A stretch of DNA of 64,000 nucleotides from Victivallales bacterium (lineage in GTDB: Bacteria; Verrucomicrobiota; Lentisphaeria; Oligosphaerales; Oligosphaeraceae), in assembly GCA_017554445.1 (NCBI GenBank), contig JAFZIJ010000016.1, positions 1-64,000 of the forward strand, written 5' to 3'. How positions within the stretch are numbered: position 1 is the first letter of the stretch; each line of letters begins with the position of its first letter. Positions 9,032-57,443 of this stretch are shown here, one piece after another. The notes under the pieces were generated by a model. It was given only the letters and a program-made list of their open reading frames with translations, made no database searches and was not told where the DNA came from. Position numbers and translations under genes: made by a program.

Positions 9032-9115
9032 GGTATTCTGGATGTTCTGGAAAATCTGGACGTTCTGGAGAATGTTTAATTCCAGTTAATCCAGTCCATC
9101 CAGAGAATCCAGTCT
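9032..9115. repeat. CTGGA/TCCAG 9-bp word array, 4+4 stepped hairpin
   Basis: Four units TTCTGGATG, TTCTGGAAA, ATCTGGACG, TTCTGGAGA at exact 9-bp spacing are followed, after a short spacer, by four units TTCCAGTTA, ATCCAGTCC, ATCCAGAGA, ATCCAGTCT, again at 9-bp spacing. The second arm is the inverse word, so the transcript could pair as a ladder of CTGGA/TCCAG steps. It sits after the stop of the 6356 gene and before the esterase. Confidence 0.85.
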
Positions 9116-24624: not shown

Positions 24625-26790
24625 ATGTTGAAGAAATTGATTGCGATGATGGTGTTGCTGGCGACGGTTTGCGGGCTGATGGCGCAAGGCGTGAACCGAA
24701 CGTACAAGGATGTCGATGGCGACAATCTGCCGGAAGTGATTCTGGAGAATGAATATCTGCAAGTCATTGTCATGACGGGCGAAATGCCGAAAGAGATTCC
24801 AGCGCCAGATGAACTGCCGGATGGACGGAAAGTGCCTTATAAATATGGTGAACGTTTCGCGCGTGGTGGTTGGATCTACAACATGATCTTCAAGCCGACG
24901 AATCGCAAGTGGTTCATCAACGACATCACGCAGGGCGAACATCGCCACGGCATTCCGGAGGAATTCGAAATCACGGAGCGCATGCGGGAAGTCGAACCGG
25001 GCTTCTATGAAGCGATGAAGCCTTCCGTTGGCACAGGCATCGGGCCGGGCTTGTGCTTCCGTAACACGTTGAAGGACATGAAGATCCCTGCATGGGGCAT
25101 GAAAGAGGAAATGTTCGCTGACGGCGAATGGAAGGTTGCTGCAAAAGACACGACGGCTCCCGCGAAAGGCTGGCGGTTGACTTTCACGCATGTCATCACC
25201 ACGGATTTAGGCTATGGTTGCGCCTATACGAAGACATTGACGCTCATGGAGGGCGAATCCGTTCTGCGGTGCCGTCGTGAACTGGCGAACACAGGCGAAA
25301 AGGAATTTTCGACATCGTTCTATACGCATGGTTTCTTCTCGCAGGGGGAGACGAATGGTCTGCTGGACGGCAACTGCTGGAGCGTCATTCCGCTCTGTCC
25401 GCCGAATGCAAAAGATTCGCCGTTCCCGAAGGATCTGATCGACGTGGAGCGCGGCATCATCCATGCGACGAGGCCCGCTTATTATTGGGGAGCAAAGAGT
25501 TATGATGAAGTCGGCGGCAGTTGGCATGCTTGCGGCAACGACAAGACGAAAGACGTCTTTCTGACGGCCGTTGACCGCAAGCCTGAGTTCTTCCGCATGT
25601 GGAATTGCGACATGACGTACTCCTACGAGCCGTTCATGGTGTTCGACCTAAAAGGCGGAAAGAAAGTGGTTTGGAACACGAATCGCGGCGTCGGCAACGG
25701 TCTGGACAGCGTGAAGGCATGCGGCGAAGGCGGCATGCTGGACTGGGATGTGACAGTGAATGAAAAGGGCGCGAAAGTGTTGAACATCCGTTTCCTGCCG
25801 TTCAAGGTCATCAAAGACGGTCTGACCTTCCATGGCACGATTACGGTCGGGCCGACAACGCAGACGTTCGACAGCGTCATGAAGAATGGCGTAGTTTCAC
25901 CAACGCAGCCGTGGATTTTCCCGCTGGAGCTTACGCCTGCGGTGGCGGCTGCGGAAGTCGCTGAAATGCACTTGTATGTGACGGAAGAAGGGCAATCGGC
26001 AGGTAATCTTGCGAATGCGGATGGCCATTATCGCATGGGCTTGAAGCCGCGTACGGCATGGGAGGGTGACGGCAACGGCGCACAGGGCGTGATTCTTGCG
26101 GAGACCAGTAAAGACGACGATGGCAATTGGAAGCACAATATGAGCACGAAATTCGCGCAGGACTATCTGAATGGCGCGGGTTTCAAAATGTCGCTGTCAT
26201 CTTCCATGGAGGATGGTTCGGAATTGAATTGGGCGAATTTGAAGTTCGTGATTCTGTCATCGCGCAGAATCAACATCAAGCTGCTACGGAAGTTGGAAGA
26301 ATTTGCGCGGCAGGGCGGTGCGGTCATCGTGACGGGGATGATCGACTTCCGTCAGTTTGAACTGTCCGATCTGCTTCCTATTAAATTTATCTATGGTGAA
26401 AGCAATACGTATGCGTTGAATCCGCGCGATGGCACGCTGGAGTTCATGGTGCAAGACGACTATCGCTATCAGCTGAAGGCGGTCGGCCAACATGAAATCA
26501 CACGCGGATTGCCGTGGTATCCGGAAAGCTACCAGAGTGTCGGTGCGTTGCAACGTGTTGTGCCGAAGGATGATGCGCAGGTCGTGTTGAATTTCACGCC
26601 TGGTCCGGGCATGTCCGATGCGGGCAGCGAATTTCCCGCGTTGGTTTTAGGCAAATACGGCAAAGGAAAAGTGGCGTATTTCGGCAGCCCGGTCGCGTGG
26701 GGCGGCCATCAGTCCAATTGCATGTGGGGACGTCTGGGCGAATACCACCAAAAGTTCTTCGTGCAGATGGCGCTGTGGGCCATTAAATAG
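24625..26790 (+). CDS. Secreted mutarotase-like protein with glutamine-amidotransferase-like C-domain
   Basis: A 721-residue exported protein. The start is set at 24625 because AAGGAG lies 8 bp upstream (within the longer frame opening at 24610); the signal peptide then ends at CGLMA|QGVN. Residues 25-430 have a galactose-mutarotase-like beta-sandwich pattern (ENEYLQVIV, FARGGWIYNMIF, TKTLTLMEGESVLRC). Residues 490-721 carry a Rossmann-like segment (LKFVILSSRRINIKLL, FARQGGAVIVTG, YGKGKVAYFGSPVAWGG) like the class-I-GATase-like domains of beta-galactosidase-type enzymes. No catalytic residues are assigned. It follows the DUF4838 gene by 58 bp, so co-expression is likely. Confidence 0.65.
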   Translation: MLKKLIAMMVLLATVCGLMAQGVNRTYKDVDGDNLPEVILENEYLQVIVMTGEMPKEIPAPDELPDGRKVPYKYGERFARGGWIYNMIFKPTNRKWFINDITQGEHRHGIPEEFEITERMREVEPGFYEAMKPSVGTGIGPGLCFRNTLKDMKIPAWGMKEEMFADGEWKVAAKDTTAPAKGWRLTFTHVITTDLGYGCAYTKTLTLMEGESVLRCRRELANTGEKEFSTSFYTHGFFSQGETNGLLDGNCWSVIPLCPPNAKDSPFPKDLIDVERGIIHATRPAYYWGAKSYDEVGGSWHACGNDKTKDVFLTAVDRKPEFFRMWNCDMTYSYEPFMVFDLKGGKKVVWNTNRGVGNGLDSVKACGEGGMLDWDVTVNEKGAKVLNIRFLPFKVIKDGLTFHGTITVGPTTQTFDSVMKNGVVSPTQPWIFPLELTPAVAAAEVAEMHLYVTEEGQSAGNLANADGHYRMGLKPRTAWEGDGNGAQGVILAETSKDDDGNWKHNMSTKFAQDYLNGAGFKMSLSSSMEDGSELNWANLKFVILSSRRINIKLLRKLEEFARQGGAVIVTGMIDFRQFELSDLLPIKFIYGESNTYALNPRDGTLEFMVQDDYRYQLKAVGQHEITRGLPWYPESYQSVGALQRVVPKDDAQVVLNFTPGPGMSDAGSEFPALVLGKYGKGKVAYFGSPVAWGGHQSNCMWGRLGEYHQKFFVQMALWAIK

Positions 26791-26820
26791 CTAAAAGCTT
26801 AAAGCTGAAAGCTTAAAGCA
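26791..26820. repeat. GCTTAAA heptamer array
   Basis: Immediately after the stop codon: GCTAAAA, GCTTAAA, GCTGAAA, GCTTAAA at exact 7-bp spacing. Nearly the same string follows the alpha-2-macroglobulin gene at 44841. Confidence 0.8.
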
Positions 26821-26826
26821 AAAACA

Positions 26827-26877: not shown

Positions 26878-26946
26878 CGACGGCGAGACGCCGTCGTTAC
26901 CAACGGCGAGACGCCGTCGTTACCAACGGCGAGACGCCGTCGTTAC
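26878..26946. repeat. Three tandem 23-bp palindromic units
   Basis: The unit (C)AACGGCGAGACGCCGTCGTTAC occurs three times head to tail (26878, 26901, 26924); only the first differs at its second base. Each contains the self-complementary core ACGGCG-nnn-CGCCGT. The array stops one base before the kdgK stop codon. A related palindrome is duplicated at 56321-56384. Confidence 0.9.
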
Positions 26947-33427: not shown

Positions 33428-33590
33428 CAGCTTAAAGCTTAAAGCTTAAAGCTCAAAGCTTAAAGCAAATACAGATTTGGTAGCTGAAAGCTTAAAGCCG
33501 AAAGCTTAAAGCAAATACAGATTTGGTAGCTGAAAGCTTAAAGCCGAAAGCTTAAAGCAAATACAGATTTGAAAGCTTAAAGCAAATACA
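33428..33590. repeat. GCTTAAA heptamers inside a 46-bp tandem repeat
   Basis: GCTTAAA/GCTGAAA/GCCGAAA words stand at 7-bp spacing. The block from TAGCTGAAAG to GATTTGG repeats as a 46-bp unit at 33481-33526 and 33527-33572, with partial units on both sides. Two levels of repetition are thus nested after the formyltransferase stop codon. Confidence 0.88.
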
Positions 33591-34370: not shown

Positions 34371-34537
34371 AGCCGTCAATGGCGCCATTGGCGCCACTGA
34401 CGGCGCTTATGGCTAATGGCCTATGGCTTATGGTGGAAAAGGACGAAAGGGACAAAAGGGACGAAAACGACAACGATTGGCACCCTTTGCATTTCGCTTT
34501 AAGCTTTAAGCTTTAAGCTTTAGGCTTTTAGCTGATA
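34371..34537. repeat. Composite of three short-period word arrays
   Basis: In plus-strand order: GTCAATGGCGCCATTGGCGC palindromic material with a CTGACGGCG repeat; GCTTATG/GCTAATG words at 7 bp (34406-34433); GACGAAAGG/GACAAAAGG/GACGAAAAC words at 9 bp (34441-34473); and GCTTTAA words at 7 bp (34498-34530). The same families co-occur at 622-702 and 57303-57443. Confidence 0.82.
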
Positions 34538-38319: not shown

Positions 38320-38460
38320 TTGCGATTCTCCATGTGTTTGGAATGGTTTTGGTCTATTGGATGGATAGAAAATACATCCTGCCATGGGAAGTTGCAAATT
38401 TTTCTGCAGATTTCATCAAATTCCATAAGATTTTGGCATGTGACGCGTCTAATATAGTGG

Positions 38461-38540
38461 ATACTGGATGTACTGGAGATACTGGAGATACTGGAGATAC
38501 CCAAACTTCCAGAACTTCCAGAACAAACCAGAGCTTCCAG
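38461..38540. repeat. TACTGGAGA/TTCCAGAAC 9-bp word array, stepped hairpin
   Basis: TACTGGATG, TACTGGAGA, TACTGGAGA, TACTGGAGA at exact 9-bp spacing, a spacer, then TTCCAGAAC, TTCCAGAAC, AAACCAGAG, CTTCCAGAT. The design is the same as at 9032 and 57332: four direct words, then four inverted words. Here it sits in a divergent promoter region, not after a stop codon. Confidence 0.85.
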
Positions 38541-38548
38541 ATGATGAT

Positions 38549-38626: not shown

Positions 38627-41600
38627 ATGTCACACGGTAAATTCTTTTTCTCTGTCATGGCTTTGATGGCTTTTGCATGTTGTGCGCATGCGGACGACAT
38701 GAAAGCCTTTTCAGACGCCGCAAAACTGAGTGGCGACGGAAAATTCAAGGAAGCGTATGACGCATATGTCAAGCTGCTGGATGATCCCCAAAACAGCGGT
38801 CGATTGGCGGCTGATATATTTAACGGAGCCGTTTATTGTCTTTCAAGGCTCAACCGCATCGGCGAATTCGATGCGTTGTTGAAAAAGACATTGGAGATGC
38901 GTAAAGATGATTGGCGGTTCGTCAGCAGATATCATTATCCAATGAGCAATGGATATATTCTGGATGGAAAATTCACCCGCGGATGGAATCGCGGCGGACA
39001 GGCCAGATATATCGATGTGCGTTACGCGGACTTGCTTGCACAGACTAAGTTGATGGTTCGGAACATGCCGTCCGTCGAGGAAAAAGACAGCTATGAATTT
39101 TATAAGGGGCTGGCTGGCATATTCTCCAATTTATTCGGAAATGGTTTTCAAGGGCCTAAAACCATATTGACAGATTTGACGCAGGAGCCTGACTACTTGA
39201 ATCCGCACGTTATGGGGAGCATGACTGAAGGCACACCCGTCGATGCGGACGGCAATCCCGTCTTCTTCCTTTGCCCGAAGAGCTTCGAAGAGGCGAAAAA
39301 CGACGGCGAACGTGTTGTCTGGGCCTATCAGATGGCTGCAAAATGCAATATCCAGGAGATTTACCGCATTTATGCAAAATTGGAACTTGTGACATTCTAC
39401 AAGCGGCTTTATGGAGTCGAAACGCTTATCCAGTCCGGATTCTTCAATCGTCGCGGAAAGCAGGACGATGAAGCATTCCGTGACAGCATTTTAGCCTTGG
39501 AAACGCTTAAGGACAATGAAACCATCGCGAAACTGGCGACTGGCATCAAACGTTTCAACTTGCCGGATGAATGCAATCCGATTGTGCTAAATCAGCGGCT
39601 CGTAGAGACAATCGATCAGTCAAAACATCTTTTTCATCAGCCGTATTTGGACTTGGCGGCGATTTACGAAAACCGTTGTCAGTATGAGAAGGCGCTGATC
39701 TGGTGGCGTAAGTATCTCGAATTAGTTGACAAGCCGCACATTGATAAAAGCTCGGCAGAGAATGCGCGGAATTCAATCCGCAAGATCACTGGCAACTGGT
39801 GCCGTATCGACGATGTCCGCAAGCAGATTGCGGGTGAGATGGGCAGTATGCGACTCTGTTTCCGCAATGGCACGAAGGCGAATTTCACGTTGCAGCGCAT
39901 CGATATGGATCAGATCGTGGCGGACTGCCAGGAGTATCTCGCCAATCTGAAAGGACGCGGAAATGACTGGAATCAGCGGAATTTCACGAATCTCGCGTGG
40001 CGGCTGTACCAAATGGACGGCGGCGAGAAGAAATATCTGAAGGAAACGACGGCCACTTGGTCCATGGATGTGACGCCCGCCGAGAAGTATCACGACCGCA
40101 CGATCACCGTGCCGCTTCCCGCCCAGAAGAGCGGTTGGTATCTACTGACCTGCTCGTTGGAGAAGGGAGAGAATACCGCCAGAGTGCCCGTCTATTTTGC
40201 GGATACGGAAATCGTTGAGAAACAGTTGAAGGATGGGAAGAAGCTTTGGCAGGTTCTCGACGCGAAGAGCGGTCAGCCGCTTGCCAATGAAAAAGTCGAA
40301 TTTTTCGTCTTATCAACGTGGTGGAACGATAAAACGAAAAAGCAGGAAAGCGATCATTCTCGTTTCGCGGAAGTGACGGATAGCGAAGGAAAAATTGTCA
40401 AAAGTGACGCTGAACTGTTTGACGGTCATAAGGAAACGAACGGTGAAGTTCAAATTGTCTTGAAAGACGACACGGGGCGCAGGGCATGGTATTCGACAAA
40501 TGGATCCTATAGGGGAGGACGGTTCGGTGTAAGAATGTTCGACGAGAACTTCCCTGAAAATCAGACACGCGCGTTTTTCCTGACGGACCGTCCTGTCTAT
40601 CGGCCTGGCCAGAAGGTGGAGTTCAAATTCTGGATTGCAAAATCACAGTACGACTACGAAGGCAAGAGCGCGGCAGCGGGCCTGATGTACGATGTCGAAA
40701 TCCGCGATCCACGCGGGCAGGTCATCAAGAAGTACAACATCACGGCGGATTCCTACGGCGGCATCGCCAATACGTTCGAACTGCCTGCGGATGCGATGCT
40801 TGGAGTGTATCATGTGAACATGCAGCATGGTTCGGGCATGTTCCGCGTGGAGGAATACAAGAAGCCTGAATTTGAAGTTACCATCGATACGCCGAAAGAG
40901 GCTCCTGAACTTGGCGACAAGTTCGAATTGACAGTCAAGGCGAAATACTATTTCGGGGCGCCTGTTTCAGAAGGGACGGCCAAAATCAAAATCCTGCGTA
41001 TGACGCATGAGGCGAAATGGTGGCCTGTCCGCCCATGGGACTGGTACTATGGCAACGGCTACTGGTGGTATTGGACGGACTGCCCATGGTATCCGGGCTG
41101 GGCGAAATGGGGCTGCCGTGCGCCGCGTTGGAGCTGGTATCGCGGCGGCTTCAGCTACGAAGCCCCTGAAGTTGTCATGGATTTGGAACAGAAGTTGCAA
41201 CCCGATGGAACCGTGAAGATTACGGTTGATACCGCCATGGCGAAACAGCTTCTTGGCGACCGTGACCACAAATACGAAATCACGGCTTCCGTGACGGATT
41301 CGAGCCGTCGTGAAATCCATGGACAGGGCAGTGTGACGGTCGCTCGCGAACCGTTCAAGGCGTATGTTTGGCTGGATCGCGGCTATGGTTTGGTCGGCGA
41401 CGCGATGACGGCCAACATGCAGGCTCGTACGCTGGACGGTGCTCCTGTCAGCGGTAAAGGCGTCATGAAATTGTATCGCGTCATGTATAATAAGGAAGGC
41501 GTCGCGGAGGAGACGGAAGAGCGCAGCTGGGAGGTCGATGCCGATGCGCAAGGCAAAGGACAGCAGATGTTTAGCGCTTCCCGTGCAGGACAGTACCGTC

Positions 41601-44600
41601 TCAGTTGGACATTGACGGATGCGAAGGGACGTTCCGTGGAAGGCGGCCAGTTGTTCACCGTCCATGGGCCTGGTTACGACGGACGGGACTTCCGTTACAA
41701 TGCCTTGGAACTGATTCCCGACAAGGCGGAATATGCAGCTGGCGAGACCGTCAAACTGATGATCAATACAGAATTGAGCGGTAGTGTCGTCATGCTGTTT
41801 GTTCGTGGAACGCAAGGGCTTCTGCCGTTGCCGCAGATCATCCGCATGAAAGGCAAGAGCCAGATCGTGGAGATTCCTGTCGAGAAAAAGGATATGCCGA
41901 ACATCTACGTGGAGGCTTACACGATGGCGAATGGCGTGTTGCACAACGTCATCCGCGAAATCATCGTTCCGCCTGAGAAGAAGATGCTGGATGTGGCCGT
42001 CAAGCCGGAAGTGGAACGGTCAAAGCCTGGAACGACGAACAAGGCGAAAATCGTCTTGAAGGATTTGCAGGGCAAGCCGTATCGCGGAAGTGTGGTCGTG
42101 TCCGTCTATGACAAGAGTCTGGAATACATTTCGGGCGGATCGAATATCGGTGACATCCGTAAGTTCTTCTGGCAGTGGCGTCGTCATCATCATTTGAATG
42201 GCGGTATCTTCAACCGCTGGCCGTTGTATCAGATTCTCAAGGAAGGTGAAGTCTTCATGCAGTCGATCGGCATGTTCAGCCAGTATCTGGCCGATATGGT
42301 GGATGTCAGTTCGACCATGGCGAAGGGGGACATAGACGGTGATGCAGGAGACGGAAGGTTGGGGATGATGCGTGCGGAACGGCCGAGGGCGAAGATGGCG
42401 ATGAAAGCGGCTCCTATGAAGGCTCTTGCTGCCGCGCCTGCGCCCATGATGGAGGCGAAAGCCGCCGGTGGTGCGATGATGGCTGTAAATGCCGCCATGG
42501 ATGTGGCAGAAGCGGAGGAGGCTGTGGCGGATGAAGGCGGGATGGTCGAACCGACCGTCCGTTCCAATTTCGCGGACACGGCATTGTGGATCGCCAGTCT
42601 GGAGACGGATGAAAACGGTGAGGCGGATATCGAAATACCGATGCCGGAGAATCTTAGCACATGGAAGATTCGCGTGTGGGCCATGGGCAACGGCACACGC
42701 GTCGGCGAAGGTTCAACGGAAGTCATCACGACGAAGGATCTGATTGTTCGTTTGGAAGCGCCACGTTTCTTCGTGCAGTCGGACGAAGTTGTTTTGAGCG
42801 CCATCGCGCATAATTATTTAAAGGAAAAGAAGACGGTCGATGTCGAATTGAAACTGGACGGCGGCTGCCTGAAGGCGAAGGACAGATTGAAGAAGAGCGT
42901 GAAAATCGATGCGGGCGGCGAAAGCCGCGTCGATTGGCGCGTCAGTGTTGTGAAAGACGGCGAAGCCGTCGTGCAGATGCGTGCGTTGACGGACGAAGAG
43001 TCGGATGCCGTCGAGCAGAAGTTCCCCGTATTCGTCCATGGCGCGGACAAGCAGGTGGCGTTCAGCGGCGCGTTGCGACCGGACCAGACGGAAGCGAAAA
43101 TCACGTTGGAGATTCCGAAACAACGGCGGCCTGAGACGACGAAGCTGGAAGTCCGCTGGAGTCCGACACTTGCGTTGGCGATGATCGATGCCGTTCCATA
43201 TCTGGCGGACTATCCGTACGGTTGTACGGAGCAGACGTTGAACCGCTTCCTGCCCGCCGAGCAGACGCGGCAAGTCTTGCGCGATCTTGGCGTTTCGTTG
43301 GCGGACATCAAGGCCGCCCGTGCGAATCTGAACGCGCAGGAAATCGGTGATGCGGAGACGCGCAAAGCGCAGTGGAAACGGTATGACCGCGATCCTGTTT
43401 TTGACGAAGAACTGCTCGATTCGATGATTCGCAAAGGGTTGAAGGATTTGACGGCGATGCAATGCTCAGACGGCGGTTGGGGATGGTTCAGCGGTTGGGG
43501 CGAACGCTCTTGGCCGCATACAACAGCCATTGTTGTGCAAGGACTTAAAACTGCCGAAAGCTGCAAATTGGTCGTGCCAAACGATGTGCTAAGACGCGGC
43601 ATCCAATGGCTGGATAACTACCAGAAGGAACAAGTCCGCCGTCTGAAACTCAAGCCGGAAGATAGACATTACAAGTCATCTGCTGACAATACGGATGCGT
43701 TGATTTATCGGATTCTTTGCGAATGCGGCGTTTTCAACAAGGAGATGGATGACTTCCTCTTCCGTGACAAAGTAAAGTCGCTTTCGCCGTATGGTCTTGC
43801 ATTGTATGGACTTGGGCTCTATTATGCAAAACAGGCGGACCGCTTGGCGGAAGTCATGCAGAATCTCGGACAGTTTGTCGTACAGGATAATGAAAACCAG
43901 ACGGCGTATCTGAACATCGGCAATGGCTTCTGGTGGTGCTGGTATGGCGATGAAATCGAGACGCAAGCCGCTTATCTAAAACTACTTGCAGTGACGAAAG
44001 AACAGCCCGAACTGGCTTCCCGTTTCGTCAAATATCTGCTGAACAATCGCAAACACGCCACCTATTGGCGTTCGACGCGCGACACGGCGGCCTGTCTGGA
44101 TGCTTTCGCGACGTATTTGCAATTCTCCAACGAAATGAATCCGGACATGACGGTGGAAATTCTGCTGGACGGAAAAGTCGTGGCGACATCCAAGATCACC
44201 CGCGAGAATCTGTTCACGGCGGACTTGACGTTTGTCGCTGAAGCGGAGAAACTTGCGAGTGGAAAGCATGAACTCGCCATCCGCAAGACGGGCAGCGTGC
44301 CGTTGTATTTCAACGCCTATCTGTCCTATTTTACACTGGAGGATTTCATCACGAAGACCGGTCTGGAAGTGAAGGTGGAACGCCGCGTCTACAAGCTTGT
44401 GCGCGACGACAAGATGGCGGATGCGACGGATTCCCGCGGACAGGCCATCAAGCAGCGCGTCGAGCAGTACAAACGTGTTCCGTTGAAGACTGGCGACACG
44501 TTGGAGAGCGGCGACCAGCTGGAAATCGAACTGATCGTCGAGAGCAAGAACGACTACGAATATCTGCTGATGGAGGACTACAAGGCGGCCGGAACGGAAG

Positions 44601-44839
44601 CCGTCGATCTGCGTAGTGGCTACAACGGCAACGAGATGGGTGCCTATGTGGAATTCCGTGACGCGAAAGTGTCGTTCTTCCTGCGGACGCTGGCCCGCGG
44701 CACTCACAGCCTGCGTTACCGTCTCCGCGCGGAGATTCCGGGCAAGTTCAGCGCCTTGCCGACGCAGATCAGCGGCATGTACGCCCCCGAACTGCGCGGC
44801 AATTCCGACGAATTCAAGCTGAAGATCAAAGACAAGTGA
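38627..44839 (+). CDS. Bacterial alpha-2-macroglobulin family protein with thioester motif
   Basis: A 2070-residue exported giant, the longest gene here. The signal peptide ends at CCAHA|DDM. Residues 25-420 are helical and TPR-like. MG1-MG6 beta domains follow, including FFLTDRPVYRPGQKVEF (about 645-665). Residues 796-840 are a Trp/Tyr-rich insert with 14 or so Trp, such as GNGYWWYWTDCPWYPGW. Residues 1245-1305 form a Met/Ala-rich flexible stretch (AMKAAPMKALAAAPAPMM) at the bait position. The A2M domain starts near NFADTALWIASLETDENG (1313). The thioester is PYGCTEQTLNRF with Cys1533, Glu1535 and Gln1536. Such proteins trap proteases covalently in the periplasm. The usual pbpC partner is absent. 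Confidence 0.93.
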   Translation: MSHGKFFFSVMALMAFACCAHADDMKAFSDAAKLSGDGKFKEAYDAYVKLLDDPQNSGRLAADIFNGAVYCLSRLNRIGEFDALLKKTLEMRKDDWRFVSRYHYPMSNGYILDGKFTRGWNRGGQARYIDVRYADLLAQTKLMVRNMPSVEEKDSYEFYKGLAGIFSNLFGNGFQGPKTILTDLTQEPDYLNPHVMGSMTEGTPVDADGNPVFFLCPKSFEEAKNDGERVVWAYQMAAKCNIQEIYRIYAKLELVTFYKRLYGVETLIQSGFFNRRGKQDDEAFRDSILALETLKDNETIAKLATGIKRFNLPDECNPIVLNQRLVETIDQSKHLFHQPYLDLAAIYENRCQYEKALIWWRKYLELVDKPHIDKSSAENARNSIRKITGNWCRIDDVRKQIAGEMGSMRLCFRNGTKANFTLQRIDMDQIVADCQEYLANLKGRGNDWNQRNFTNLAWRLYQMDGGEKKYLKETTATWSMDVTPAEKYHDRTITVPLPAQKSGWYLLTCSLEKGENTARVPVYFADTEIVEKQLKDGKKLWQVLDAKSGQPLANEKVEFFVLSTWWNDKTKKQESDHSRFAEVTDSEGKIVKSDAELFDGHKETNGEVQIVLKDDTGRRAWYSTNGSYRGGRFGVRMFDENFPENQTRAFFLTDRPVYRPGQKVEFKFWIAKSQYDYEGKSAAAGLMYDVEIRDPRGQVIKKYNITADSYGGIANTFELPADAMLGVYHVNMQHGSGMFRVEEYKKPEFEVTIDTPKEAPELGDKFELTVKAKYYFGAPVSEGTAKIKILRMTHEAKWWPVRPWDWYYGNGYWWYWTDCPWYPGWAKWGCRAPRWSWYRGGFSYEAPEVVMDLEQKLQPDGTVKITVDTAMAKQLLGDRDHKYEITASVTDSSRREIHGQGSVTVAREPFKAYVWLDRGYGLVGDAMTANMQARTLDGAPVSGKGVMKLYRVMYNKEGVAEETEERSWEVDADAQGKGQQMFSASRAGQYRLSWTLTDAKGRSVEGGQLFTVHGPGYDGRDFRYNALELIPDKAEYAAGETVKLMINTELSGSVVMLFVRGTQGLLPLPQIIRMKGKSQIVEIPVEKKDMPNIYVEAYTMANGVLHNVIREIIVPPEKKMLDVAVKPEVERSKPGTTNKAKIVLKDLQGKPYRGSVVVSVYDKSLEYISGGSNIGDIRKFFWQWRRHHHLNGGIFNRWPLYQILKEGEVFMQSIGMFSQYLADMVDVSSTMAKGDIDGDAGDGRLGMMRAERPRAKMAMKAAPMKALAAAPAPMMEAKAAGGAMMAVNAAMDVAEAEEAVADEGGMVEPTVRSNFADTALWIASLETDENGEADIEIPMPENLSTWKIRVWAMGNGTRVGEGSTEVITTKDLIVRLEAPRFFVQSDEVVLSAIAHNYLKEKKTVDVELKLDGGCLKAKDRLKKSVKIDAGGESRVDWRVSVVKDGEAVVQMRALTDEESDAVEQKFPVFVHGADKQVAFSGALRPDQTEAKITLEIPKQRRPETTKLEVRWSPTLALAMIDAVPYLADYPYGCTEQTLNRFLPAEQTRQVLRDLGVSLADIKAARANLNAQEIGDAETRKAQWKRYDRDPVFDEELLDSMIRKGLKDLTAMQCSDGGWGWFSGWGERSWPHTTAIVVQGLKTAESCKLVVPNDVLRRGIQWLDNYQKEQVRRLKLKPEDRHYKSSADNTDALIYRILCECGVFNKEMDDFLFRDKVKSLSPYGLALYGLGLYYAKQADRLAEVMQNLGQFVVQDNENQTAYLNIGNGFWWCWYGDEIETQAAYLKLLAVTKEQPELASRFVKYLLNNRKHATYWRSTRDTAACLDAFATYLQFSNEMNPDMTVEILLDGKVVATSKITRENLFTADLTFVAEAEKLASGKHELAIRKTGSVPLYFNAYLSYFTLEDFITKTGLEVKVERRVYKLVRDDKMADATDSRGQAIKQRVEQYKRVPLKTGDTLESGDQLEIELIVESKNDYEYLLMEDYKAAGTEAVDLRSGYNGNEMGAYVEFRDAKVSFFLRTLARGTHSLRYRLRAEIPGKFSALPTQISGMYAPELRGNSDEFKLKIKDK

Positions 44840-44840
44840 G

Positions 44841-44870
44841 CTAAAAGCTTAAAGCTGAAAGCTTAAAGCA
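44841..44870. repeat. GCTTAAA heptamer array
   Basis: One base after the stop codon: GCTAAAA, GCTTAAA, GCTGAAA, GCTTAAA at 7-bp spacing, almost identical to the array after the gene ending at 26790. Confidence 0.82.
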
Positions 44871-44886
44871 TAATACATTAGAGGTT

Positions 44887-44970
44887 CTAGATTTCTAGGC
44901 AGCTAGGCGGCTAGACGGCTAGAAACCTAGAATGCTAGCCATCTAGAATGCTAGCCATCTAGCCATCTAG
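44887..44970. repeat. Eleven CTAG words at exact 8-bp spacing
   Basis: CTAG begins at 44887, 44895, 44903, 44911, 44919, 44927, 44935, 44943, 44951, 44959 and 44967, with changing 4-base fillers (ATTT, GCAG, GCGG, ACGG, AAAC, AATG, CCAT). Because CTAG is a palindrome, the array can pair with itself in many registers. It lies between convergent genes. Confidence 0.93.
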
Positions 44971-44997
44971 TAGCCGCTTTGCCACGCAAAGCGGCTA
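44971..44997. terminator. 11-bp perfect hairpin at convergent gene ends
   Basis: TAGCCGCTTTG (44971-44981), loop CCACG, CAAAGCGGCTA (44987-44997). The right arm overlaps the stop codon of the minus-strand glycosidase. No clear T-run, so the terminator role is tentative. Confidence 0.6.
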
Positions 44998-54024: not shown

Positions 54025-55566
54025 TTATGCTTCAGCGTTTGGGCAACCGTCAAAAGCATCATGGCTGATTTCCGTAACACTGTCTGGTATGACGACATTC
54101 GTCAAATGGGTGCATTCCGCAAAGGCAAGTTTACCGATTGTCTCCACGCCATTGGATATGACGACTTTTTTCAAGTGCTCGCAACCAGCGAATGCTGAAT
54201 CGTAGATATCCTTGACATTGGGCGGTATGGTGATGCTTCTTAAACTTTTGCAAGAAGCAAATGCTTCTTCCCCAATTACTTCAACATTATTGGGGATGGT
54301 GATATTATTCAGTCGTGAACAACCTTCGAACATCCACTCGCCGATTTCCGTTATGCTTTTTGATAAAATGATGTCGGTGAGGTTTGAGCATTCATTAAAG
54401 GCGGCACCACCGATTTCCTGGACGCTGTCGGATATGATGACTTTGGCCAGGCTTGTGCATTGGGAAAATGCTCCGTAACCGATTTTCGTGATGCTGTCAG
54501 GTATGATAAAATTGCTCAAGCTCGTACAACTTGCGAACGCATAATCGCCGATTTTCTTGACACTTTTGGGGATGTTGACCTGTGTCAACCCCGTGCAATC
54601 TGAAAATGCCCCGTCTTTAATTTCATCAATACCATCTGGTATAGTAACAATACCAGTCGCCGAAGGCCAAGCTTCAAGTTTTTTACCGATGCAAATCATC
54701 GGTACGCAAGAACAACCAACAAATGCACGATAACCGAGTTTTTTGAGGCCTTTGGGAATGTTGACGCGGCTCAAAGACGGGCAATCATGAAATGCACGAT
54801 CGCCGATTTTCGTGACGCTTTCCGGAATAGTGACGCTGGTCAGAGCTTTGCAGTATTGGAAAGCCTCGGCACCGATTTCCGTGACACCTTCTAGAATTGT
54901 GACGCTGGTCAGGCTCGTACAGTTATAAAATGCATTGTCACCGATTTTCGTGACACCTTTGGGAATTGTGACGCTGGTCAGGCTCGTGCAGTTATAAAAT
55001 GCCCTTTTACCGATTTGGGTAATATTGTCTGGTAAGGTGATTGCTCCAGAAGCAGACGGCCAAGCTACGAGACAACCGTCTTGACATATCATTGGCAAGG
55101 AAGTGCAGCCATAGAATACACTGCCGTCACACTTCTCAAAACAAAGGGGAAGTGTGACTTCGGTCAAGGCTGTACAGTGATTAAACGCCTTGTAACCAAT
55201 TTTCGTGATGTCGTCTGGAAGAATAACACAGATCAAGCTTGTGCAATTATTGAATGCATAGTCGTCAATTGTTGTGACACTGTCAGGTATGTTGATATTA
55301 GTTAAATTCTTGCAGTTTTTGAACGCGTTTTCTCCGATTTTCTCAAGACCAGATGGTAATTCCACCTCGCATAAGTCTTCGAAATTCATGAACGCACCAT
55401 CTCCGATAACGGAAATTCCCTTGCCGATGATCAGCTTTTTAACTCCCTTGCAAATTGTACCAGAGGATTTGCAAAAAATGTCCTTGATCTTGTGCGGCTC
55501 TGATTTAGACACGTACTTTGAACCAACTTCAATGACCAGCGTTTCTTTTTCGTTGAATTTTTTCAT
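54025..55566 (-). CDS. BspA-type leucine-rich repeat protein
   Basis: A 513-residue protein made of about 20 LRR_5 (Treponema pallidum/BspA) repeats of 23 residues, consensus LTSVTIPEGVTKIGDNAF-YNCTS. The start is set at 55566 because AAGGAGG lies 6-8 bp upstream. No signal peptide or anchor is visible, so it is cytoplasmic or exported by another route. Twice the ladder is broken by a variant block with MICxDGCLVAWPSASG and MICIGKKLEAWPSATG, about 135 residues apart. Codon use is more AT-rich than in the neighbours, suggesting acquisition. BspA-like proteins usually bind host or bacterial surfaces; the role here is open. Confidence 0.9.
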   Translation of the reverse strand: MKKFNEKETLVIEVGSKYVSKSEPHKIKDIFCKSSGTICKGVKKLIIGKGISVIGDGAFMNFEDLCEVELPSGLEKIGENAFKNCKNLTNINIPDSVTTIDDYAFNNCTSLICVILPDDITKIGYKAFNHCTALTEVTLPLCFEKCDGSVFYGCTSLPMICQDGCLVAWPSASGAITLPDNITQIGKRAFYNCTSLTSVTIPKGVTKIGDNAFYNCTSLTSVTILEGVTEIGAEAFQYCKALTSVTIPESVTKIGDRAFHDCPSLSRVNIPKGLKKLGYRAFVGCSCVPMICIGKKLEAWPSATGIVTIPDGIDEIKDGAFSDCTGLTQVNIPKSVKKIGDYAFASCTSLSNFIIPDSITKIGYGAFSQCTSLAKVIISDSVQEIGGAAFNECSNLTDIILSKSITEIGEWMFEGCSRLNNITIPNNVEVIGEEAFASCKSLRSITIPPNVKDIYDSAFAGCEHLKKVVISNGVETIGKLAFAECTHLTNVVIPDSVTEISHDAFDGCPNAEA

Positions 55567-56320: not shown

Positions 56321-56384
56321 TTTTGCCAACGGCGGGACGCCGTCGCTACAACTTTTGCCAACGGCGGGACGCCGTCGCTACAAC
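56321..56384. repeat. Two tandem 32-bp palindrome-containing units
   Basis: The 32-bp unit from TTTTGCCAAC to GCTACAAC is duplicated exactly (56321-56352 and 56353-56384). Each holds ACGGCG-GGA-CGCCGT, the same palindromic core as in the 23-bp units at 26878 (ACGGCG-AGA-CGCCGT). It ends three bases before the ribosome site of the amidohydrolase. Confidence 0.92.
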
Positions 56385-56399
56385 TCAAAGGAAAACATC

Positions 56400-57302: not shown

Positions 57303-57443
57303 GGGACAGAAGAGACGAAAACGACTGAATAGCTGGATTTTCTGGATGATTTGGATATACTGGAATAGATTTTCCAGAACATCCAGAATATCCAGAACAT
57401 CCAGAATATAAATACCATAAGCCATTGGCCATCAGCCATCAGC
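57303..57443. repeat. Composite of three word arrays between convergent genes
   Basis: GGGACAGAA, GAGACGAAA, ACGACTGAA at 9 bp (57303-57329); CTGGATTTT, CTGGATGAT, TTGGATATA, CTGGAATAG then TCCAGAACA, TCCAGAATA, TCCAGAACA, TCCAGAATA at 9 bp (57332-57408); and CCATAAG, CCATTGG, CCATCAG, CCATCAG at 7 bp (57414-57441). The middle array is a 4+4 stepped hairpin. Confidence 0.88.

Follow-up and report, generated by a model that had tools for sequence, protein, structure and literature searches.

Intergenic CTAG arrays with an 8-bp period and variable fillers at the 3′ ends of genes in a Victivallales bacterium

Short intergenic arrays are commonly written off as products of slippage. In the 64,000-nucleotide stretch of DNA analysed here (the window), the gap between two convergent genes holds an array in which one four-base word recurs with a strict period while the bases between its copies vary, and this raises the question of whether something reads the word or whether it is a by-product of the way in which such DNA is copied. 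The features of the locus are as follows:

38627 to 44839, plus strand: gene for a bacterial alpha-2-macroglobulin (PF00207, PF17973), 2070 aa, the upstream convergent gene
44839 to 44869, plus strand: 7-bp array (AGCTAAAAGCTTAAAGCTGAAAGCTTAAAGC) that overlaps the upstream gene's stop codon
44887 to 44970, no strand: CTAG array, 11 CTAG with a period of 8 bp and ten variable 4-bp fillers
44971 to 44997, no strand: perfect hairpin with a 12-bp stem and a 3-base loop, which includes the minus-strand gene's stop codon
44995 to 47118, minus strand: NAGPA / phosphodiester glycosidase gene (PF09992), 707 aa, the downstream convergent gene

The plus-strand gene ends with a TGA at 44839, and the minus-strand gene has its TAG stop at 44995-44997, within the hairpin. 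The gap of 155 bp is mostly filled by the array, whose words start at 44887 and then every 8 bp up to 44967. The initial annotation had reported eleven CTAG at exact 8-bp spacing between convergent genes, next to a perfect hairpin, and all of this is confirmed. It had also called the array far from chance and CTAG a word that bacterial genomes often avoid. Both are borne out here: the three-word phased pattern has 9 matches in the window and none in 100 dinucleotide-preserving shuffles, and CTAG is depleted across the window with 38 occurrences against 56 expected, or 27 without the array. The module AGCTAAAAGCTTAAAGCTGAAAGCTTAAAGC is found ahead of CTAG arrays elsewhere, too. At the site of the window array, the related genome G003 has a 2.4-kb insert with a 539-aa gene (L060:1014-3381).

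A search for further phased arrays in this and related genomes, suggested when the array was first described, found them. There are 67 overlapping matches to four phased CTAGs in this genome (G000), where the reversed word gives 0, as well as 113 in G002 and 305 in G003. The sister species G001 and G004 gave 0, so that two of the four sister species are without phased CTAG arrays, and the search was negative in nearly all members of the rest of the family. Across the phylum, 16 of 388 genomes have phased CTAG matches, and variable-filler CTAG arrays are found in distant families (55 matches in G141, 25 in G155, 15 each in G158 and G289). Other lineages use other array words: G239 has 16 matches to phased GATC arrays, and G001 has AGGTC-N4 patterns of period 9, with 84 and 110 matches on the two strands. 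The genomes are fragmented metagenome assemblies, one per species, and genes were called with a simple purpose-written script. The statistics come from sampled stretches, some of them picked for CTAG arrays, while the density figures come from unselected subsets.

CTAG is conserved far beyond its fillers. When pairs of CTAG 16 bp apart were selected blind to the word between them, this middle word was CTAG in 126 of 131 pairs, and word and filler variation differed with a Fisher p of 2e-35 in the smaller set. In a larger set the mismatch was 0.0068 per base (0.7%) in the words and 0.47 (47%) in the fillers, a 69-fold difference; fillers whose two neighbours are equal served as the matched control. 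The distant lineages, at 56-69% GC, have CTAG as the middle word in 67 of 69 pairs, and there a purine follows CTAG in 99% of the fillers and a pyrimidine precedes it in 97%, which is a dyad-symmetric extension of the word (YCTAGR). In alignable orthologous arrays the words are 91% identical and the fillers 70% (p = 0.0005), with 88% in other intergenic DNA, values that rest on few bases and depend on the alignment. In 424 kb that had not been selected for arrays, about 40% of the CTAGs belong to pairs phased at 8 or 9 bp. The proposals that the phased CTAG itself is maintained, and that the period is kept as the fillers drift, are thus both borne out.

The view of CTAG as the maintained word needs to be widened, however: it is held, but it is only one among several locked words with periods of 7, 8 and 9 bp. 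AAAGC-NN (period 7) and CTGGA-N4 (period 9) are also locked in the CTAG-bearing genomes, less strongly than CTAG; the contrast does not extend to TCCAG, whose filler control is almost invariant. The survey of array words found no period-8 word besides CTAG. A sample of 204 kb from this genome, for the most part chosen regardless of arrays, holds 43 arrays with a conserved word of at least 4 bases, mostly with periods of 7, 8 or 9 bp, and all of them are intergenic. Convergent gaps hold 6.9 arrays per kb of intergenic DNA, tandem gaps 1.9 and divergent gaps 0.4. In the sister clade the density is far lower, the arrays are near-perfect repeats, and neither CTGGA nor CTAG arrays occur. Matches to CTGGA on both strands number in the hundreds in this genome and G002 and are few in G003 (336, 231 and 27, against 67, 113 and 305 for CTAG). 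In the window, (CTGGA-N4)n followed by (TCCAG-N4)n forms inverted 9-bp pairs and long interrupted hairpins at 9037-9112, 38460-38541 and 57334-57406. GC-rich dispersed repeats (ACGGCGAGACGCCGTCGTTACCA and relatives) stand in tandem in gene-end gaps (26880-26946 and 56321-56385), and a 69-bp tandem repeat in three copies lies within a coding region (54803-55016).

The first description had also asked whether the copies are always intergenic. The CTAG arrays are, and they favour convergent genes: they sit at gene 3′ ends in 21 convergent, 14 tandem and 0 divergent gaps (p about 1e-18 against intergenic length). The median distance to the stop codon is 10 bp for 3′-end CTAG arrays and 6 bp for AAAGC arrays; some arrays contain stop codons, and CTAG arrays are frequently preceded by an AAAGC array. 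Sense-oriented 7-bp arrays of the form (AAAGC-Y-D)n lie right after stop codons in the window (26789-26824, 33429-33583 and 34496-34533) and are dispersed in three species.

How do the arrays arise? The variable fillers had been taken as an argument against slippage, and this argument is not supported. Read in the same direction, but not as inverted copies, the fillers of one array are related: identity at lags 1-2 is 16-22%, compared with 3% between different arrays. At one orthologous site, the unit number is 2 in G000, 4 in G002 and about 15 in G003. Therefore, tandem duplication builds the arrays, with units multiplying locally by direct duplication of 8 and 16 bp. The fillers of the window array fall into the blocks GCAG GCGG ACGG and AATG CCAT AATG CCAT CCAT, the latter a 16-bp duplication. 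Entire 3′ regions turn over rapidly between species: among 129 orthologous gaps, the convergent ones have a median identity of 0.16, the tandem ones 0.63 and the divergent ones 0.76, and array types swap at orthologous gene ends, with a CTGGA hairpin in one species and a CTAG array in another. A segment between inverted (TAATGAT)n arrays is flipped from one species to another, and G002 has an additional small gene there (L044:15769-15928 and L084:4838-5277).

Much of this is what a non-adaptive, satellite-like library would produce, and we regard such an origin as a credible competitor, if a somewhat doubtful one. The arrays would be microsatellites, grown in rapidly evolving 3′ regions by slipped-strand or unequal duplication, and the word would be kept since copying, through microhomology or a templated step, needs it and the cell does not. 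The related fillers with their 16-bp duplications, the variable unit number at one site, the swapped array types in unalignable convergent gaps and the fact that each lineage has its own dominant words all point in this direction. On the other hand, ordinary copying homogenises or decays every column equally. Given the 69-fold gap between word and filler and the slower change of the word between orthologues, a cause beyond ordinary copying is therefore needed.

As this cause we tentatively prefer, at a little short of even chances, a constraint on CTAG as a recognition word, which would keep the arrays that tandem duplication makes. CTAG would be the word recognised by a putative sequence-specific DNA-binding (or DNA-processing) factor that may sit on a number of sites close to gene ends, 8 bp apart, with CTGGA (9 bp) and AAAGC (7 bp) as equivalent or rival site types. 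Such an architecture would resemble known arrays of several sites to which dimers bind cooperatively, such as the 7-bp parS heptads of pSM19035. Our narrow leaning towards a reader, over word-dependent copying, has two grounds: between species the filler changes faster than the word, and the combination of word and period is found again in distant genomes. Several observations count against a reader. Dominant words differ between close species and the sister clade is without both, so any factor would have to change fast or be dispensable, and CTAG also occurs with a 9-bp period. The operator of the Trp repressor has CTAG half-sites at 8-bp spacing and is found at promoters. Word and spacing are those of the arrays, but the arrays lie at gene ends and the TrpR family (PF01371) is absent from all five genus genomes, with positive controls; Trp repressor was therefore rejected as the reader, and no CTAG-binding protein was found.

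An element acting at the RNA level, in which the arrays would fold in the transcript as (possibly bidirectional) terminators or 3′ stabilisers, appears improbable, although the 3′ location suits it. CTGGA arrays come before TCCAG arrays and never the reverse (21:0), AAAGC arrays are in sense orientation after stop codons at 38 of 40 3′-end sites, and one orthologous pair shows paired changes (CTAG-AATT-CTAG and CTGG-AATT-CCAG). The CTAG arrays themselves behave differently: their fillers have no clear strand preference, and their folds are less stable than those of control arrays in which the order and orientation of the fillers had been shuffled (mean z +0.98). Across the class of CTAG arrays, this trend is the opposite of that expected from filler pairing across the array, and a hairpin terminator of this kind is ruled against. 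Nor do arrays replace intrinsic terminators, which occur at 35% of convergent ends both with and without arrays; in the sister clade the value is 62% against 35%, on small numbers. Rho utilisation sites, with their period of 7-9 bases, were rejected by reasoning only, as AAAGC units are without pyrimidine-C steps and the TAG of CTAG would be superfluous for Rho.

That the arrays serve as stop codons is very unlikely. TAG is contained in CTAG on either strand, and since a unit of 8 bp changes the reading frame, three units close all six frames. Within the genus, 7 of 40 gene ends have their stop at a CTAG of an array; the other lineages give 9 of 22. However, stops are not favoured in the 7-bp units, where the stop-less AAAGC-CG occurs about as often as its two positions predict (12 against about 9, an estimate from counts), the 9-bp CTGGA units bring neither a stop nor a frame shift, and TAG is not clearly enriched outside arrays. 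Least probable of all are mobile-element footprints with a CTAG target-site duplication: 3′ gaps are hotspots of insertion and rearrangement, as the G003 insert at the window array's site illustrates, but the same design exists in other locked words, this insert has no transposase by inspection, and all five species have Y1 transposases of the REP type, whether they carry arrays or not. The presence of these transposases thus does not match that of the repeats, and a REP/RAYT system was rejected.

Paper searches on CTAG octamer arrays found nothing relevant. The closest described kind are the heterogeneous heptamer repeats of Xanthomonas, (GGGANTN)n, and Nostoc, GGGGA(C/T)T, which are intergenic, scarce between divergent genes and at most 50 bp from stop codons, sometimes overlapping them; they often have four units, vary in length between species, and are G-rich with quadruplex formation proposed (PMC4692102). 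The CTAG arrays share the short units with a conserved core and variable positions, the intergenic placement outside coding DNA and away from divergent gaps, and the proximity to stop codons, some of which lie inside arrays. They differ in the absence of G-runs for quadruplexes and in coexisting with 7- and 9-bp families, and since their word is a palindrome, their period 8 bp and four bases of each unit free, they are a variant of this kind and not a member. The TAACTGA heptamers of Beggiatoaceae, and long simple sequence repeats in general, are likewise short tandem repeats that are genome-wide, intergenic and patchy across phyla (PMC4679880, citing Mrazek 2007), but they are near-perfect fixed units that lie upstream of start codons and not at 3′ ends, with no split into word and filler (PMC4679880). 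How a CTAG array could be read may be modelled on the parS sites of pSM19035, where 7-10 contiguous heptads in mixed orientations are bound by the RHH protein ParB/Omega and at least four contiguous repeats are needed (PMC9499535). Contiguous short sites with a fixed core and variable edges are common to both, whereas parS comprises only six sites, on one plasmid and at promoters (PMC9499535).

In its fullest form, the preferred reading would have a putative protein that reads CTAG (YCTAGR in other lineages) at 8-bp spacing at the 3′ ends of many genes, with the other words and periods as equivalent sites. Such a system would mark gene ends or organise the chromosome, and it would have arisen more than once or have moved among lineages of the phylum; in our judgement, this is unlikely. 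Because the filler provides an internal control, with half of the unit held and half drifting in at least two independent groups, it becomes testable whether a sequence reader makes use of gene-end arrays or whether these only result from copying, and species pairs in which one array type has replaced another at orthologous sites offer natural experiments for this comparison.
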